Shown: piece by piece, positions 3,895-42,731 of the stretch | Layout of the letters: every line of letters begins with the position of its first letter | Numbering within the stretch: the stretch's first letter is position 1 | NCBI GenBank assembly: GCA_001515945.1 | Contig: LOER01000023.1 | Span: 1 to 64,000, forward strand | Length of the DNA stretch: 64,000 nucleotides | DNA from: Desulfitibacter sp. BRH_c19 | GTDB taxonomy: Bacteria; Bacillota; DSM-16504; Desulfitibacterales; Desulfitibacteraceae | Direction of reading: 5' to 3' | Program-made: the position numbers and the translations under genes | The notes under the pieces: model-generated | Database searches by the model: none | Told to the model about the DNA's origin: nothing | The model's input: the letters and a program-made list of their open reading frames with translations, nothing else

Positions 3895-4671
3895 TCACCT
3901 TTGGAAGCCTTCTTTTTGGGCAAGGTAGTCTAGATATGAGGTTTCGGCATCTTCTATGAGAATATTATCTTTTAGTAAGCTGCCACTTCTTTCATCATAA
4001 GTCTTAATATAACCATTACATGTTAGGCAGAAATTAACCTTATATCCGTTAAATTTCTTCTCTTCCTCAATTTTAAAGTACCCTAATTTTTCAGGGTCTT
4101 TTTCAAGACAAAATGGACAAGCTATCCTGTTAAATGGCCATTGAGTTTCACAAAGGGGACATAAAAGATACCTTTTGCCATTTTCTTTTCCAGATAAACG
4201 TGCAAAGACTGCATTATGACCACAGACAGGACAATGACCTGATTTCCACTCATGTATATCATTATTCTTTGTGACTTGTTTTCCATAAACTTTCAAAAAA
4301 GGCTTTAAGCTATAAATTAACACAGTTTTTGCATAAGACGGATTTGTAAATTGCTCTAATTCAAAGGACCCATTTTTAATGGTTATTTGAGAAAAAATTC
4401 TTTGTAACCTGCTGTCTTCACCCTCTTCTTCTGCAGAAGCTATTTCTTCTAACTCCCCTAGGGTTTTAATCTCTTCTTCCATATATTCCTTTAATAAGCT
4501 TATTACTTCTTTTAAGACTTTTCGATAACCTTCAATGTCAATGCCTGGTGGAAAGATATCTGTAACTTGGTTGGGTATATATGTCTTTTCTACATTTTGA
4601 TCTATTTGTATTAGCTTCTCAAACATTTTAATTTTCCATTGTGGTATTTGTCTTTCTATTTTTTGCTCCAT
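3895..4671 (-). CDS. fdhE: FdhE formate dehydrogenase accessory protein
   Basis: A 258-residue cytoplasmic zinc/iron-binding protein of the FdhE family. These proteins act after translation on exported respiratory formate dehydrogenases, binding the Tat-bearing catalytic subunit. The C-terminal half carries four CxxC pairs (CPVCGHNAVF, CPLCETQWPF, CPFCLEKD, CLTCNGYIKTY), the rubredoxin-like metal-binding part of the family. The N-terminal half is helical and charged. It is the last gene of the operon fdhA-fdhB-nrfD-like-fdhE and ends before a strong terminator. The length is slightly below the E. coli protein. Family and role are well supported by both motifs and context. Confidence 0.9.
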   Translation of the reverse strand: MEQKIERQIPQWKIKMFEKLIQIDQNVEKTYIPNQVTDIFPPGIDIEGYRKVLKEVISLLKEYMEEEIKTLGELEEIASAEEEGEDSRLQRIFSQITIKNGSFELEQFTNPSYAKTVLIYSLKPFLKVYGKQVTKNNDIHEWKSGHCPVCGHNAVFARLSGKENGKRYLLCPLCETQWPFNRIACPFCLEKDPEKLGYFKIEEEKKFNGYKVNFCLTCNGYIKTYDERSGSLLKDNILIEDAETSYLDYLAQKEGFQR

Positions 4672-4751: not shown

Positions 4752-5975
4752 TTATTTAGACAATGATTGTTGTTTTGAATCCATATCTAGTACATATTCT
4801 GGTGCTAACCCCTTCTGCTGATTCTCCACAAAGGGGTTATTCTCTGCTTCTGGTTCAAACACTTCAAAATTCTCTACTATAAATAGATAAGCAAGACAGC
4901 CCATGGAAATAATTCCGAAGCTAACTGCAAATTCTGTTATAGCAGGAATATAACCCATAGGAGCCGCTTGATATAAACCTGTGAAGAGTATATTTAATCT
5001 ATTCACAACAACACCTGCTACAACTAATGATGCTGACCAGGAAATAGCTCTTTGGCTAGCATTTTTAGATGTAAACATTACAATCAAGATTGGAATAATA
5101 AACAGAGACATCTCAATCAAGAACATATTGCTAGGAAGTGTACCTTCAAACATTGTTCCAATATGCCCCCTTGCCTGAAGATCCCAAAGCTTTAATCCAA
5201 CATAGAGGGTTAGCAATATTGCAATACCTTTTGATAGTTTTGCTAGTACATGTTTTTCAAATTCCATCTTGTAAGCACTTGATGCAAGAGAAGCCTCAAT
5301 TGTAACCATGGCAGGCCCTACAATTACTGCAGAAAATAGGAATAACCATGGCAATAAACTTGTATACCATAATGGGTGTAATTTTTCCGGCATTATCACG
5401 AACAAAGCTCCTAAGGAGGATTGATGCATCGATGACAGAACTATACCAGCAATTACTGCAGGAATGGCTATCTTTGTAGTGACCTGGTATACCTTCTTCC
5501 ACTTAAACCTTTTGGATATGACAGGAAGAAACTCCACCAAGAGGACAACGTTGTATACCATAACACAAGTAAAAACTTCAAATAAAACAGATGTATAACC
5601 CCAAGAGAAAAGTGGTCTCCACCAGTTATACCACAAACCAACGTCCATGCCCAAACCGACTACCACTAGTAAATATCCAATCCAGGCTGTTAAAATAGCT
5701 GGTTTAGAAAGGGATTTAAAGTCTTTGAGATTAAAGATGTAATAGAGAGCCGCTGTGGTAAAACCACCTGCTGCCAATGCCACCCCTAACATAACATCTA
5801 CGCCAATCCATAAACCAAAGGGCCAAGAATCGTTTAGATTTGTTACTGATCCCAAACCAAATACTAATCTGTACAACATGGTGCTTGCTCCAAAGGAAGC
5901 TACAAGCAAAAGCACTATTCTTAAAAATGTTATTCTAAATGAAAAGGATCCTATTTTTATAGTTTTATAGCCCAC
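4752..5975 (-). CDS. NrfD/PsrC-type membrane subunit of formate dehydrogenase
   Basis: A 407-residue integral membrane protein with about ten hydrophobic helices of the NrfD/polysulfide-reductase family. It should anchor the iron-sulfur and catalytic subunits and pass electrons to the quinone pool, replacing the cytochrome b (FdnI) anchor of E. coli FDH-N. It is rich in conserved Trp/Gly loops such as WPFGLWIGVDVMLG and YNWWRPLFSWGYTSVLFE. Translation starts at a GTG only two bases after the stop of the ferredoxin-type gene, with AGGTGA in front, so the two are translationally coupled. No heme ligand pattern of FdnI is evident. The exact electron acceptor is inferred. Confidence 0.88.
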   Translation of the reverse strand: MGYKTIKIGSFSFRITFLRIVLLLVASFGASTMLYRLVFGLGSVTNLNDSWPFGLWIGVDVMLGVALAAGGFTTAALYYIFNLKDFKSLSKPAILTAWIGYLLVVVGLGMDVGLWYNWWRPLFSWGYTSVLFEVFTCVMVYNVVLLVEFLPVISKRFKWKKVYQVTTKIAIPAVIAGIVLSSMHQSSLGALFVIMPEKLHPLWYTSLLPWLFLFSAVIVGPAMVTIEASLASSAYKMEFEKHVLAKLSKGIAILLTLYVGLKLWDLQARGHIGTMFEGTLPSNMFLIEMSLFIIPILIVMFTSKNASQRAISWSASLVVAGVVVNRLNILFTGLYQAAPMGYIPAITEFAVSFGIISMGCLAYLFIVENFEVFEPEAENNPFVENQQKGLAPEYVLDMDSKQQSLSK

Positions 5976-5977
5976 AG

Positions 5978-6775
5978 CTATTCACCTACCTTTTCAATTT
6001 TATCTTGTTCAGCTTTTAAAACCTGCTCCTTACGGTGCGTAAGCATGTAAATAGCTGTCATAGAAGCACCAACACCTACCGCCAAAGCTGGTACTTTCTT
6101 AAGTGCTTTCCATGTAAGCTTTGGATATGGTTCATAAGATATTTTTGTAGAAAAACCTAAGTTCTCAAAAGGTACATCTGAAAGATAAAGTACACTTGTA
6201 CCCCCTGCCTCATGCTCTCCATATATATGGTCAATATATTTTCCAGGATTAGTAGATATCCTCTTTCTTGCAAGTGCCAACATTTCCTCCCTGTCCCCAA
6301 ATTCGATAGCGCTAGGACATGAGGTAGCACAGGCTGGTTTTCTGCCTTCTTCTAACAAGTCAATACAAAGCCTACATTTTTTAACAGCTGGAAAAACTTT
6401 ATCCCACTCATATTTAGGTATCCACCATGGACACGCTAACATGCAGTAACGACATCCAACACAGTTCTTTTTGTTATATACAACAGCACCTGATTCACTT
6501 TTTGTTATAGCTTTAGCAAAGCATGCAGAAACACATGCTGGATCTATACAGTGCATACACATCCTCTTAACAAATCTCCAGGCTGGCTTTCCATGCTGCT
6601 CAGTTTCTATAAAATCTACCATAGTAAATGTCTGAGCTGCAGTTGCAGGAGGATTTGTTATGGAATTTGAAAAGCTGGTTTTCTCCGTATCTAGATTATT
6701 CCAGGATTTACATGATACCTGACACGATCTACATCCAATACATCTAGTAATATCTATTAACATGGCTTTAGACAA
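5978..6775 (-). CDS. Four-cluster 4Fe-4S ferredoxin-type subunit of formate dehydrogenase
   Basis: About 265 residues, the FdnH/FdoH-like electron-transfer subunit. Four cysteine clusters are visible in order: CIGCRSCQVSC, CMHCIDPACVSAC, CVGCRYCMLAC and CRLCIDLLEEGRKPACATSC, enough for four 4Fe-4S centres. A C-terminal hydrophobic helix (VPALAVGVGASMTAIYML) resembles the single membrane anchor of FdnH. It has no signal peptide, so it is probably exported together with the Tat-bearing catalytic subunit. I prefer a TTG start at 6775 because GGGGGTG precedes it at good spacing; a TTG at 6790 lacks a ribosome site. It lies directly after fdhA and is coupled to the NrfD-type gene. Confidence 0.9.
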   Translation of the reverse strand: MSKAMLIDITRCIGCRSCQVSCKSWNNLDTEKTSFSNSITNPPATAAQTFTMVDFIETEQHGKPAWRFVKRMCMHCIDPACVSACFAKAITKSESGAVVYNKKNCVGCRYCMLACPWWIPKYEWDKVFPAVKKCRLCIDLLEEGRKPACATSCPSAIEFGDREEMLALARKRISTNPGKYIDHIYGEHEAGGTSVLYLSDVPFENLGFSTKISYEPYPKLTWKALKKVPALAVGVGASMTAIYMLTHRKEQVLKAEQDKIEKVGE

Positions 6776-6794
6776 TCTAATCACCCCCAACTAT

Positions 6795-9700
6795 TTATAT
6801 TTTTCGAATATTACACATAAATGCTTTGCTCTCAGGTATAGATGAGTTTGCATCACCCACATTAGGAACAAGAGTATTTGCAGAAGCTCCTGTGGAAAGT
6901 CCCTTAAATCCCCAGTGCCAGGGCATACAAACAAGATGATGCACGTTACCCCTTATGTATAAAGGTTTGTTACGGGATGTTACCATAGCCCTGACCTTTA
7001 TTTGTCCTCTGGGAGAGCTAATTAGAATCATTTCACCAGGTTCAATTCTATATTCGGCGGCAAGCTCTCTAGATATTTCTGCATACATTTCTGGCATTAA
7101 CTCAACCAAAGATGGTAGGTTCCGTGTCATTACACCACTTTGATAATGCTCAGTTACACGCATTGTAGAAGCAATTATAGGATAATTAGGATCACCCTTT
7201 TCAACTAGCTTACTATGGTCATGTTTCCATATGTTTGCAACAGGCATGAACTCTCTTTTGCTAAAGGCGTTTTTAACTGGGCTTTCAACAGGTTCATAAT
7301 GCTCTGGGAAAGGACCATCTAAAGGGGAATCTGAAAACAGTCTGCCCACTCCCTCAACCGTCATAATGAATGGGCTACTTCCAGATACTTCTGGTTCTAT
7401 AGTTGCGTTAAAATCTGGAACATCTAGATTTGTCCACTTTCCTCCACTATAGCTAAATATGGGCTTTTCATTATTCCATGGCTTACCATTAATATCTGCT
7501 GAGCATCTATTGTATAATATTCTCCTGTTAAGTGGCCACGCATACGAATAATTAAGGAATACTCCTAAATCTCCAGGATCATCTAGTTCACGTTTTTTGC
7601 ATGCCGGGTTTTCTGGATCAGCAAAATAACCTGCATAAATCCAGTTTCCACAGGCAGTACTTCCATCATCCTTAAGAACGCCAAAAGAAGTAATCCCCTG
7701 ACCACTAGCCACATCATATCCATTAACCTCTAGTGCTATCTTTTTAACATCAGGTTTTTTCTCAAAGCTTCCACCGTAATCCCAATTCATCTTCAGAATT
7801 GGATCTGGATAAGCTCCTCCTTGTGACTTATATAAATCCCGAACTTCATTAAATATTCTATCTACAATCCATAGGTCGCTTTTACACTCACCTATTGGTT
7901 CAATTGCTTTGTAACGCCACTGTATCCATCTGCCACTATTTGTAACTGATCCTTCTTTCTCGTATACACTAGCAGCAGGTAGCATAAATACCTCTGTATC
8001 CACTTCCTCTGGGTTAACATCTGGAGCTTTCCAGAATGCACCAGTTTCAGTCTCGAAGAGGTCTATTGCTACCATCCAGTCTAATTTTTTTAATGCCTCT
8101 ACAGTATAGCTAGTATTAGGTCCTCCAACTACTGGATTTTGACCCCAGATCATCATTCCATTAATAGTTCCCTCATGGGTATCCTTTATTATACTTTGAT
8201 GGGAATGATCATTTGCGTCACACTTAGGAAAATAGTCGTATCCAAAATTATTTTGCGGTGTAGCATTTTCCCCATAAAATGCCTTTAATAAACTCACAAA
8301 GAATTTTGGTTTGTTTACCCAGTATCCACCAGGTGGAGTTTCCTTTTGAATGTAATCTGCTAAATTTGGATGAGCAAAATCCTTTGGAACAGCTAGATAG
8401 CCCGGAATTATGTGATATAGCATTGCCATATCAGTAGAGCCTTGCACATTACACTCACCACGTTGCGCATTTACTCCACCTCCAGCTATCCCCATATTAC
8501 CGAGGATTAACTGCAACATAGCAAGTATCCTGACATTCTGGGTTCCAACAGAATGCTGGGTAATGCCCATTGCATAAATAACGTTACCAGCTCTACCGGC
8601 AATACCAGTAGAGGTATATGTTCTTGCTACTGTCTCATATGTCTGCCTATCACAGCCAGTTACCTGGCAAACAGTTTCAATGTCATAGCGTTCTACATGC
8701 TTCTTTAAAAGCTGAAAGACACATCTAGAATTGGTCAAGGTTATATCCTTTATAGGTTTTCCTTCTTCATCTAATTGGTATTTCCAAGTTCCTTTGTCAT
8801 AAACTTCCTTGCCATCTTTTTCCTGCAGCCCAGAAAATTCGCCATCATTAAAAATAAAGTCTTCTCTCACCAAGTATGATGCATTTGTGTAGTTAATCAC
8901 ATAATCGTGATGATAACTACCATGGTCAAGTGCATATTTAATAATCCCATTTATAAATGCAATATCAGTACCTGGACGAATATGGGCAACCATATCAGCA
9001 GAAGCACATGTTCTACTATATCTAGGGTCAACAACAATAACCTTTGCCCCTCTTTGTTCCTTAGCTCTGTGAATCCACTTCATTGCGAGTGGATGATTTT
9101 CTGCTGGATTAGCACCAATTATTAAAAACACATCCGAATTCTTGTAGTCTATCCAATGGTTAGTCATGGCCCCACGCCCAAATGATGCTGCCAGACCGGC
9201 AACAGTAGGACTGTGTCAGAGACGAGCATGGTGATCAATACTTACTAAGCCTAAACCCCTAACGAATTTGTGGAAGAGATAATTTTCTTCATTTTCTAGA
9301 GCTGCTGATCCAAAGTTTGCCATTGCAAAGGTTCTATTTACAGTAACACCTTGTGCATTTTTTTGCTCAAATGTTGCATCTCTTGTATCCTTGATTCTTC
9401 TAGCAATCTCTTTTAGCGCCCACTGCCAATCTTTTTCTTCCCATTCCGTACTTTTAGGAGCTCTGTACAATACTTTTTTAAGCCTGAGCTTGTTTTCAAC
9501 CCTTTTACCTTTCTCCATAATATGGGTAAAATCACCAATTGAAGCACCCTTTGAACACAAAGCACCTTCATTGATTGGGTTATCAGGATCTCCTTCAACA
9601 TAAATGACCTTGTTGTCTTCTGCATAAACTAGGATGCCACAACCTACCCCACAATAAGGGCATATAGTCATTTTTTCAGTACCATACTTGATCTTTAGTT

Positions 9701-9824
9701 CCCCAGCTAAAGCTTTGGAAGGGCCCCCAAGTAATTCCATTCCTGAAACTGTAGTGCCAAATGCAGTAGCACCACCCAAGCCTTTTAAAAAGCCCCGTCG
9801 TGAAATTAGTTTATTAATACTCAC
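6795..9824 (-). CDS. fdhA: Selenocysteine-containing, Tat-exported formate dehydrogenase alpha subunit
   Basis: Catalytic molybdo- or tungstopterin subunit oxidising formate to CO2 outside the membrane. Reading through one in-frame TGA (9216-9218) as selenocysteine gives 1009 residues with Sec at 203. The 202 residues before it hold a twin-arginine signal (SRRGFLKG, about residues 8-15) and the N-terminal 4Fe-4S motif CPYCGVGCGILVY. The Sec context ARL-U-HSPTVAGLAASFGRGAM matches the conserved FDH active site, and GAMTNHW continues on the other side. Downstream are the pterin-binding domains (GANPAENHP, GNMGIAGGGVNAQRGECNVQG) and a C-terminal molydopterin-dinucleotide domain. The start is GTG with AAAGGAGG seven bases upstream. 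It heads the operon with the ferredoxin, NrfD-type and FdhE genes. Gene callers will split it in two unless Sec is allowed. Confidence 0.95.
9183..9218 (-). promoter_or_regulatory. SECIS element and UGA selenocysteine codon of fdhA
   Basis: The UGA at 9216-9218 is followed by a small hairpin with the apical loop GGUCU closed by a GCC/GGC stem, with an unpaired U on the 5' side. This is the same loop and bulge arrangement as the E. coli fdhF SECIS bound by SelB. It lies entirely inside the coding sequence, as is normal for bacteria. Confidence 0.88.
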
Positions 9825-9871
9825 AAAACAACCTCCTTTGTCTTAAATCGATCTCTCTCTATATATTAATT

Positions 9872-23368: not shown

Positions 23369-24067
23369 TCACCCTTCCAATATGTCCATTGGAGTACATA
23401 AAGCATCATCTTTCAAAGCATACAGGGCTTCCCTTATAAAGTTGGGTCTGCCTTTTACCTTAAAATTCCCAAATGATATAAAAGCATCGTATACTTCCCC
23501 AGCTCTTACATTTCCTTTGCTTCCTGTTACTACAATAAATTTGAAAAACAAATTCATATCTTTAATTTCAGCGTCTACATAAAAAATTCCTTCTTTTATA
23601 TTAATTTCCTTTACCTTATCCTTGGTTTTCCTAGTAACTATCATCTCTTCCTGGTCAAGAAATCTTTTTACTACTTCATTTAATACCTCTTCTTTTATAT
23701 CTTCTTCCAACAGACATATTGCCCTGTATTTAGCTCTTTCTACTATAGCTGTCAATGATTCAACCTTGATCTTGATCTCTTTAACATCTAGTATCTCAAG
23801 ACTATTAATCAGGTTTTTATTAACTTCAATTTTGAAATCCTCTATATCCATTTCAGTAGAAAGTTCAATATCTAGATATTCACCTTCACTTGCTATCCCT
23901 ACAGAAAGAGCTGAAGCATAGCTTATTTTTGGATGTGGATTGAAGCCTTCGGAAAAGGCCAATGGAATCCTTGCTCTACGAAAAGCCCTTTCCATAGCTT
24001 TCATTAACTCCAGATGAGATAAAAAACGAGAACTTCCCATTTTTGCATATTTAACCCGTAGTTTCAT
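23369..24067 (-). CDS. Radical-SAM-linked DUF2344 protein
   Basis: A 232-residue protein of the DUF2344/TIGR03936 family. The N-terminus LRVKYAKMGSSRFLSHLELM followed by RRARIPLAFSEGFNPHPKISY is the family hallmark. It always travels with a TIGR03960 radical SAM protein, and here it overlaps that gene by 17 bases and is followed six bases later by rng. Its function is not established; a role in tRNA or rRNA modification is often suggested because of the gene neighbours. Confidence 0.88.
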   Translation of the reverse strand: MKLRVKYAKMGSSRFLSHLELMKAMERAFRRARIPLAFSEGFNPHPKISYASALSVGIASEGEYLDIELSTEMDIEDFKIEVNKNLINSLEILDVKEIKIKVESLTAIVERAKYRAICLLEEDIKEEVLNEVVKRFLDQEEMIVTRKTKDKVKEINIKEGIFYVDAEIKDMNLFFKFIVVTGSKGNVRAGEVYDAFISFGNFKVKGRPNFIREALYALKDDALCTPMDILEG

Positions 24068-39427: not shown

Positions 39428-42073
39428 CTATTCACGTTGAAATACTGACAGTCTTTCCACTAAGCTTTCATGTTTCGCAGTTAATTCTTTTTCCTTTTCT
39501 GTTTCCTTATTCACAACTTCTTTGGGTGCCTTTTTTAAGAATTCCTTGTTATTTAGTTTCGTGGTTACCCTATCTAGTTCTTTGGTAATATTAGCAATAT
39601 CTTTTTCAAGACGCTTCACTTCAACTTCTACATCTATCAGACCTTCTAATGGAACATAAACTTCTACACCATATGCCACGACAGTAGCAGCTTTTTCAGG
39701 CTTTTCTTCCAAAGTATCTTTTATGGTGATAGGAAATGCACTAGCAAGGGTTTCTATATAAGCAAGATTGTCTTTAAGAGCTTCCTTAGCTTCAAGCGAT
39801 TTTATCAAAATAATAGCCTCTGCCTTTTTGCCAGGTGGGACATTCATCTCATTTCTAATATTCCTAATCCCCCGAATTATTTCCATTAAAAGCTGCATTT
39901 TGGCTACATCAGTACTATCCTTCACATCCTTAACCTCTGGCCAAGCTGAGAGCATTATGCTTCCTTGTTTACCAGGCATATGATTCCATATCTCTTCAGT
40001 AATAAACGGCATAAATGGATGAAGCAATTGGAGTGCTCCTGTTAAAGTACTATACAAAACTTCCTGAGCCGTATTCTTGCTTTCTTCAGTAACTTTTCCA
40101 AATAATCTTGGTTTAATTAATTCTATATACCAGTCACAAAGCTCATTCCATATGAACTCATAAATGATCTTACCTGCTTCACCCAATTCATACTTCTCCA
40201 TAGATTCGGTTACTTTATTTACTACTTCCTGATAACGAGTTACTATCCACCTGTCTGCAAGAGAATAATTACTAGAATTGCTAATCTGCTCTGGATCATA
40301 ATCCTCCAGATTCATCAGGGCAAAGCGGGAGGCATTCCAAATCTTATTTGCAAAGTTTCGTGCTCCATCTAGTCTTTCAAACTGAAACCTTAAATCATTA
40401 CCTGGAGTGTTACCAGTAATAAGCATAAATCTGAGTGTGTCAGCTCCATACTTGTCTATAACCTCTATTGGATCAATACCATTACCCAAGCTTTTACTCA
40501 TTTTTCTACCTTGACCATCCAACACTAGACCATGGATAAATACATCATCAAAGGGTACACCCTCCTTAAACTCAATTCCCATAAAGAGCATTCGTGCTAC
40601 CCAAAAGAAAATAATATCTCTTCCTGTTACAAGTACACTTGTAGGATAAAATTGACTTAAGTCCTCAGTATTTTCTGGCCAACCTAGTGTAGAAAAGGGC
40701 CACAATGCAGAACTAAACCATGTATCAAGAACATCAGGATCCTGGGTAAGCTTCCCAGCACAAGCATCACATTCTTTGGGTTCACTTAGACTGCAGATTT
40801 CTTTGCCGCAGTCATCACAGTACCATACTGGAATTCTATGTCCCCACCATAACTGCCTTGATATACACCAATCTCTAATATTTTCAAGCCATCCTAGATA
40901 CACTTTTGTAAATCTCTCTGGTACAAATCGTACATCACCTTTTTTAGCTGCTTCCATTGCTGGCTCTGCTAGAGGCTTCATTTTTACAAACCATTGAGGG
41001 GATACAAGAGGTTCTATAATAGTATCACAGCGATAACATTGCCCTACTGCATGGTCATGTTCTTCAATATTTACCAAATAACCTTGGTTTGCAAGGTCTT
41101 CAATAATCTGTTTTCTACAATCATACCTATCCATTCCTTGATATGGTCCGGCTTCTCCTGTCATTGAAGCATCCTTGCCAATAACTACAACATGGGGTAG
41201 TTTATGTCTTACAGCCATTTCAAAGTCATTAGGATCATGTGCTGGAGTTATTTTGACAGCACCAGAACCAAACCCAGGATCTACATAGGTATCTGCAACA
41301 ATTGGAATCTCCTTATTAAGAATGGGCAAAATAGCAGTCTTGCCTATATATTCTTTATACCTTTCATCATCTGGATGGACTGCTATGGCAGTATCACCTA
41401 GCATTGTCTCAGGTCTTGTTGTAGCAACCACTACATGACCATTTCCATCTTTAAATGGATACCTAATATGATAGAGCTTTCCTTTTGAGTCTTTATGCTC
41501 TACTTCAATATCTGATATGGTAGTTTTGCACTTAGGACACCAGTTTACAATGTAGTTTCCTTTATATATTAAACTTTTTTCATACAACTGAACAAAAACT
41601 TCTAAGACAGCTTTTGAACACCCCTCATCCATTGTAAATCTCTCTCGTTTCCAGTCGCAGGATGCTCCCAATAACCTTAACTGTCTTGTGATGGTATTCC
41701 CATATTCGTGTTTCCAGTCCCAAACTCTCTCTAGAAATTTCTCTCTTCCTAGTTGATACTTGGTTAGACCTTCTTTAGCAAGATGCTCTTCAACTCTAGC
41801 CTGTGTTGCAATACCTGCATGATCAGTTCCCGGTACCCAGAGAGTATTGTAACCTTGCATCCTTTTAAACCGTATTAATATGTCTTGTAATGTGTTGTCT
41901 AGAGCATGTCCCAAATGCAAAGATCCTGTAACATTTGGTGGGGGCATCACAATACAATATGGATCTTTTTCTTTTTGAGGTTCTTGATGAAAGTAACCAC
42001 TTTCCTCCCAATGTTTATACCATTTTCTTTCAACCTGTTGAGGGTCGTATTTCGAATCTAAGGTTTTTTGCAT
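39428..42073 (-). CDS. valS: Valyl-tRNA synthetase
   Basis: An 881-residue class I synthetase. HIGH motif PPPNVTGSLHLGHALDNTLQD near residue 45, editing domain with TTRPETMLGDTAIAVHP, catalytic KMSKSLGNGIDP, anticodon-binding domain, and the C-terminal coiled coil (about 810-880) typical of ValRS. Full length. It lies downstream of a T-box leader whose specifier region fits valine, with an unusually long 300-base stretch between the leader terminator and the start codon. Confidence 0.97.
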   Translation of the reverse strand: MQKTLDSKYDPQQVERKWYKHWEESGYFHQEPQKEKDPYCIVMPPPNVTGSLHLGHALDNTLQDILIRFKRMQGYNTLWVPGTDHAGIATQARVEEHLAKEGLTKYQLGREKFLERVWDWKHEYGNTITRQLRLLGASCDWKRERFTMDEGCSKAVLEVFVQLYEKSLIYKGNYIVNWCPKCKTTISDIEVEHKDSKGKLYHIRYPFKDGNGHVVVATTRPETMLGDTAIAVHPDDERYKEYIGKTAILPILNKEIPIVADTYVDPGFGSGAVKITPAHDPNDFEMAVRHKLPHVVVIGKDASMTGEAGPYQGMDRYDCRKQIIEDLANQGYLVNIEEHDHAVGQCYRCDTIIEPLVSPQWFVKMKPLAEPAMEAAKKGDVRFVPERFTKVYLGWLENIRDWCISRQLWWGHRIPVWYCDDCGKEICSLSEPKECDACAGKLTQDPDVLDTWFSSALWPFSTLGWPENTEDLSQFYPTSVLVTGRDIIFFWVARMLFMGIEFKEGVPFDDVFIHGLVLDGQGRKMSKSLGNGIDPIEVIDKYGADTLRFMLITGNTPGNDLRFQFERLDGARNFANKIWNASRFALMNLEDYDPEQISNSSNYSLADRWIVTRYQEVVNKVTESMEKYELGEAGKIIYEFIWNELCDWYIELIKPRLFGKVTEESKNTAQEVLYSTLTGALQLLHPFMPFITEEIWNHMPGKQGSIMLSAWPEVKDVKDSTDVAKMQLLMEIIRGIRNIRNEMNVPPGKKAEAIILIKSLEAKEALKDNLAYIETLASAFPITIKDTLEEKPEKAATVVAYGVEVYVPLEGLIDVEVEVKRLEKDIANITKELDRVTTKLNNKEFLKKAPKEVVNKETEKEKELTAKHESLVERLSVFQRE

Positions 42074-42376: not shown

Positions 42377-42655
42377 AAAAAAAGCCATCATCCTTTTTTA
42401 AGGACGAAAGCTTTCGCGGTACCACCTTAATTCCAAAATCAAACAAACACCAGTAATGAATAAAAATATTCCTTACTGATAGAAGTTCAACTTTATTGAC
42501 ACTTAACCAGTTATAACGGACTGACCCGAAAATGCTTACTAGCTTCAGCATTTAGTCTCCAGGGCGACTTCACTATAACTTACCTCATGGTCTTTCAGCC
42601 AAAGGACCAATTCTCTCTAGAGGAAGAAAATAGTTACTACTTCCTATCATCGATT
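42377..42655 (-). ncRNA. Valine-type T-box leader of valS-folC
   Basis: The T-box sequence GGTGGTACCGCG lies at 42415-42426 on the minus strand, just before a terminator with AAAGC...GCTTT and TCCTT/AAGGA stems and a U-run (42377-42414). Upstream, stem I has TAACT paired with AGTTA next to a specifier loop reading GTGAA then GTC (42566-42568), a valine codon, as expected for valS. Uncharged tRNA-Val would favour the antiterminator and increase valS-folC transcription. The specifier assignment is my reading of the fold. Confidence 0.9.
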
Positions 42656-42731
42656 TAGAAATCAGAATTCAGAAGTTAGGAGTCAGAAGAAACTATTCTG
42701 TTTCCTATATTCTGTATTTCTGTATTCTATT

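Follow-up and report, generated by a model that had tools for sequence, protein, structure and literature searches.

The window analyzed here is a 64,000-nucleotide stretch of Desulfitibacter sp. BRH_c19 (contig LOER01000023.1, positions 1 to 64,000). On its minus strand lies fdhA (6795..9824), predicted to encode a selenocysteine (Sec) formate dehydrogenase alpha subunit of 1009 aa. The gene starts at a GTG codon (9822-9824), with a ribosome-binding sequence, AAAGGAGG, read directly from the sequence 5' of it (9832..9839). Downstream on the same strand are genes for a 4Fe-4S ferredoxin-like electron-transfer subunit resembling HmcB, HybA and FdhB (270 aa, 5978..6790), an NrfD-family membrane subunit resembling HybB and HmcC (407 aa, 4752..5975), and an FdhE-like formate dehydrogenase accessory protein (258 aa, 3895..4671). 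Mechanical ORF calling splits fdhA into two ORFs, 9216-9824 (202 aa; these positions include the stop) and 6795-9167 (790 aa). The initial annotation had placed the apparent genes at 9219-9824, which is the first ORF minus its stop, and below 9168, and had proposed that the pair is a single Sec-containing catalytic subunit. Both ORFs share one minus-strand frame, which from the GTG at 9824 up to its terminal stop is interrupted once, by a UGA at 9216-9218; this UGA would encode Sec 203 in the context ARLUHSPTVAG.

Read with Sec at this codon, the fdhA product matches the formate dehydrogenase-N alpha model TIGR01553 at 1202.5 bits (cut-off 814.2) over model positions 2-1009 of 1009, and aligns over its full length with the structures of solved Sec formate dehydrogenases (E ~1e-287 for 9qm0, 6sdr and others; 2.3e-266 for 1kqf). 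U203 lies within ARL-U-HSPTVAGLAASFGRGAMTNHW, which aligns with the matching active-site stretch of 9qm0, and U203 and H204 align with the counterpart residue and His of that chain; U203 would be the metal-ligating residue. These alignments confirm the earlier claim that active-site residues flank the UGA and, together with the single frame and the full-length FDH-N-type match, bear out the reading of the apparent gene pair as one subunit. Pfam domains detected in the product are Molybdop_Fe4S4, Molybdopterin and the dinucleotide-binding Molydop_binding. Close to the N terminus is a twin-Arg motif, SRRGFLKGL, which presumably represents a Tat signal.

Conservation of the UGA was measured in 55 relatives from a scan of genome contigs, all of which could be placed at the UGA site. 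The site codon is TGA in 54 and TGT (Cys) in the remaining one (L040). A survey of 398 genomes of the phylum at a threshold of E <= 1e-150 gave matches in 96, with exactly one internal TGA in most full-length ones. No match at this threshold was found in the two other genomes of the genus, which carry more distant formate dehydrogenase-like genes, some likewise with one TGA. Two more formate dehydrogenase-like genes of the BRH_c19 genome itself, C34:53255-53986 and C4:132625-133335, have a UGA at the corresponding site. In a second comparison set, the distinct sequences numbered 27 with Sec and 12 with Cys. Retention of the in-frame UGA or its replacement by Cys among homologues is the criterion used for bacterial selenoproteins, and by this pattern of codons fdhA would be classed as one.

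These data bear on whether fdhA is instead two separate neighboring genes, with the UGA a true stop and the downstream ORF beginning at its own ATG (9167). Such a pair does occur in the window. Among the UGA read-through candidates with more than 60 residues on either side, of which there are three per strand with the formate dehydrogenase included, the UGA at 23369-23371 (minus strand) lies between the coding sequences of a DUF2344 protein and of RNase G, which share a frame. That candidate was rejected and its UGA taken as a true stop, as the flanks are complete proteins of different families (DUF2344/TIGR03936 and RNase G); no SECIS match was found near it. Some in-frame UGAs of this genome are thus not read through. 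At fdhA, however, a single family model, TIGR01553, covers both halves across the UGA, and HSPTVAGLAASFGRGA, which directly follows the UGA and lies upstream of the ATG, aligns with the active-site segment in enzymes of known structure. In relatives, either the UGA is present as well or the gene is uninterrupted and encodes Cys, and the open-frame Cys homologues (L040; L110, L117, L127-L138) contradict a two-gene arrangement, which we consider highly improbable. Elsewhere in the window, a T-box leader was detected at 42397-42659 (minus strand, 118.9 bits) upstream of the minus-strand ORF 39428-42073.

Reading of the UGA as Sec calls for a SECIS element, and a SECIS region running from the UGA in the 3' direction (9165..9218, minus strand) was identified by folding and by Rfam SECIS_3. 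Its apical hairpin (9186..9204, minus strand) has 7 bp including one U-G and the loop GGUCU at 9193-9197; it lies 18 nt past the UGA and has a predicted folding energy of -18 kcal/mol. In PMC13188914, the bSECIS model is given an apical loop of 3-9 nt with G within the first two positions, an upper stem of 4-16 bp, a distance of 16-37 nt from the UGA and an MFE of at most -7.5 kcal/mol, and the fdhA hairpin falls within each of these bounds. The folding energy of the element is unremarkable (z -0.46, with 64 of 200 shuffles equal or better), so energy was not used as evidence and the case for the hairpin rests on comparison. Rfam SECIS_3 (RF01989) aligns along the entire element with 48.3 bits (E 3.2e-10), a score that does not reach the gathering score of 63. 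As this match may in part mirror protein conservation, the RNA was tested against a null that preserves codons.

When pairing was scored in a single register across 52 distinct sequences, there was no excess over this null (0.510 observed for the apical 4 bp versus 0.518 for codon shuffles), and the upper helix paired better when slid by +1. A two-register test was devised after this result; the lack of a single-register excess is explained by a stem register that differs between sequences. The test used 57 distinct sequences, being the UGA rows of the relatives minus the window's own copy (L018). With either register allowed, all four apical pairs are Watson-Crick in 50 of the 57, as compared to 12.2 ± 2.9 (maximum 22) in 2000 within-column synonymous-codon shuffles, which do not keep the relatedness of the sequences. 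Where Ala follows Leu, the stem closes around 5 nt and is fully paired in 20/21 sequences in register 0 and in 0/21 in register 1; where Gly follows Leu, it closes around 6 nt, with 30/36 fully paired in register 1 and 0/36 in register 0. In the Ala group, the loop-closing pair occurs as C-G, U-A and A-U and the fourth pair as U-A, G-C, C-G and A-U, with the changes compensating at synonymous sites. Seven sequences are not fully paired: two contain a single G-U wobble, and the other five are TVQGLG genes with GGUUU, for which pairing in a third register, as read by eye, is possible. The lower stem predicted by energy is not conserved, being paired, for instance, in 4/52 sequences at one position and 13/52 at another.

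In the second set, the hairpin is fully paired in 27/27 distinct Sec sequences versus 1/12 distinct Cys sequences, the Cys genes being on average more distant, and GGUCU is present in 26/27 versus 2/12. This set overlaps the first in some genomes, as L116 and L045, and likewise L120 and L050, start at near-identical contig positions. The sole Cys gene of the 12 with a complete hairpin and GGUCU loop (L110, the same gene as L137) looks like a remnant SECIS, as expected after a recent Sec-to-Cys exchange; remnants of this kind in Cys-containing FdhA homologues are described in PMC1794560. The comparison supports a hairpin that Sec genes maintain at the RNA level and that has for the most part degenerated in Cys genes. 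The SECIS with GGUCU loop proposed by the initial annotation therefore stands as a conserved RNA hairpin, but the element reaches to about 9165-9169, beyond the boundary of 9183 given there. From these sequence patterns we lean towards a model in which the formate dehydrogenase SECIS consists of a near-constant GGUCU over a stem with at least two registers, giving a 5-nt or 6-nt loop, that are tied to the Ala or Gly codon after Leu, so that protein and RNA would have switched together. The Ala/Gly-linked register change would be a mildly new detail; GGUCU does not appear among the literature matches listed. A two-register stem may be the reason for the sub-threshold Rfam score of the fdhA element, and its description could aid the refinement of SECIS models.

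The components required for Sec decoding were sought in the genome assembly (3.85 Mb in 48 contigs, estimated to be 100% complete). One convincing copy of selC was found at 76 bits, called by ARAGORN as tRNA-SeC with anticodon tca (UCA), along with selB (386.5 bits, cut-off 242.25) and selA (594.9 bits, cut-off 267.9). The three are clustered in the order selA-selB-selC on a single strand, with selC directly adjoining selB. A second tRNA(Sec) match above the cut-off (C37:21404-21489, 47.3 bits) was rejected, as it is really a tRNA-Ser with anticodon tga. Two selD genes score 375.6 and 370.3 bits against a cut-off of 125, and both contain an in-frame UGA, in the contexts AGUAAK and SGUACK (L014 and L015; contigs C10 and C34); the ORF after the L014 selD starts with what we take to be TusA/SirA-like sequence. 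The initial annotation had predicted selA, selB, selC and selD elsewhere in the genome and had named the absence of selC and selB as grounds for rejecting a Sec enzyme; all four are present. This evidence also speaks to the UGA being a former sense codon, changed in a pseudogene or by sequencing error. Just one interrupting codon would suffice for that explanation, which is nevertheless very unlikely given that 54/55 relatives from other genomes have the same UGA, that UGA and hairpin are conserved across genera, that the hairpin 3' of the UGA covaries, and that the genome holds a complete Sec machinery.

The gene adjoining one selD encodes a SLAC1-family membrane protein (L139:6515-7681, minus strand, corresponding to C34:193017-194180; PF03595, 36.4 bits) with an in-frame UGA at codon 323. 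This UGA is common to 12 of 13 other homologues in the 398 phylum genomes, in the context MVU[AG]xVGSQVLG[VI]YV, and the DNA after it is near-constant. We rejected this gene as an undescribed selenoprotein and claim no novelty for it, since it is already named in NCBIfam as selenoprotein TsoY (NF047643, 555.6 bits over a cut-off of 250). A term search within PMC13188914 found neither SLAC1 nor TehA, and SLAC1 was also absent from the selenoprotein literature matches listed. Two further genes lie near selD and tsoY. One (L139:8877-9764, plus strand) encodes a LysR regulator similar to the LysR of selenium metabolism (NF040786; 229.8 bits against a cut-off of 250), and the other (L139:6150-6380, minus strand) encodes a small protein of the DsrE family.

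The genes downstream of fdhA were assigned by family models. The 4Fe-4S subunit matches NF045715 at 279.9 bits and TIGR01582 at 157.7 bits (cut-off 334.7), both below their cut-offs, and Fer4_11 at 76.8 bits. The NrfD-family subunit scores 60.3 bits with PF03916, over the threshold of 25.8, and 284.4 bits with NF008133, under the cut-off of 450, while the FdhE-like protein scores 61.2 bits with TIGR01562, under the cut-off of 187.65, and 43.6 bits with PF24859 (FdhE_central), over 27. Judged as a three-subunit FDH-N the locus is incomplete, as FDH-beta falls under its cut-off and an NrfD-family protein stands where a cytochrome b gamma subunit is expected. Since the contigs of many relatives end early, gene-order counts are lower bounds: FdhA > FeS > NrfD > FdhE was seen in at least 2 of 55 relatives (L026 and L037), FdhA > FeS > NrfD in at least 1 of 55 (L074), and FdhE > FdhA > FeS with no NrfD relative detected in at least 31 of 55. 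The NrfD-type anchor suggests quinone reduction; NrfD together with selenocysteine was absent among the literature matches listed.

Taken together, the data indicate that these genes form an operon encoding an exported formate dehydrogenase that is anchored in the membrane, depends on molybdenum or tungsten and has a Sec catalytic subunit, a reading to which we assign a probability of about 98%. The original proposal of a Sec formate dehydrogenase, made from the UGA and SECIS, is now backed by the reading frame, by the family to which the protein belongs, by conservation of both the UGA and the hairpin, and by the sel genes. From the families involved we infer Sec insertion, metal ligation, export and the electron route of the complex as follows. 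SelB carrying Sec-tRNA(Sec), the latter made by SelA and SelD, would bind the GGUCU hairpin at the UGA at 9216-9218, so that Sec is put in and translation does not terminate. Sec203 would then serve as a ligand to the metal in the pterin cofactor, and FdhA, matured with the help of FdhE, would be exported via the Tat route. Formate would be oxidized by FdhA on the outer side of the membrane, with electrons predicted to pass via the 4Fe-4S subunit and then the NrfD-type membrane protein into the quinone pool.

The membrane partner of E. coli FDH-N is a cytochrome b subunit. The BRH_c19 locus differs from that system in its NrfD-family membrane partner and in a 4Fe-4S subunit that scores below the FDH-beta cut-off. 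Its catalytic subunit is like FDH-N/FdnG and the Desulfovibrio-type FdhA (TIGR01553; PDB 1kqf, 6sdr, 1h0h) in aligning over the full length, in having Sec in the same stretch, and in sharing the Fe4S4 and molybdopterin domains. The fdhA element has the UGA, the 18-nt spacing and the GGUCU loop in common with Rfam SECIS_3/SECIS_2 and bSECIS, but in contrast to SECIS_3 its lower stem is not conserved in relatives, and its score is under the gathering score. FdhA is one of the bacterial selenoproteins with the widest distribution, occurring in 67 of the 75 organisms that use Sec in PMC1794560. The fdhA gene described here is an ordinary addition to a bacterial selenoprotein family that ranks among the best known, although automatic annotation that halts at the UGA would yield a broken formate dehydrogenase. 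The Cys-containing FdhA homologues with remnant SECIS elements described in PMC1794560 belong to this family as well, and the gene in the window differs from them in having the UGA.
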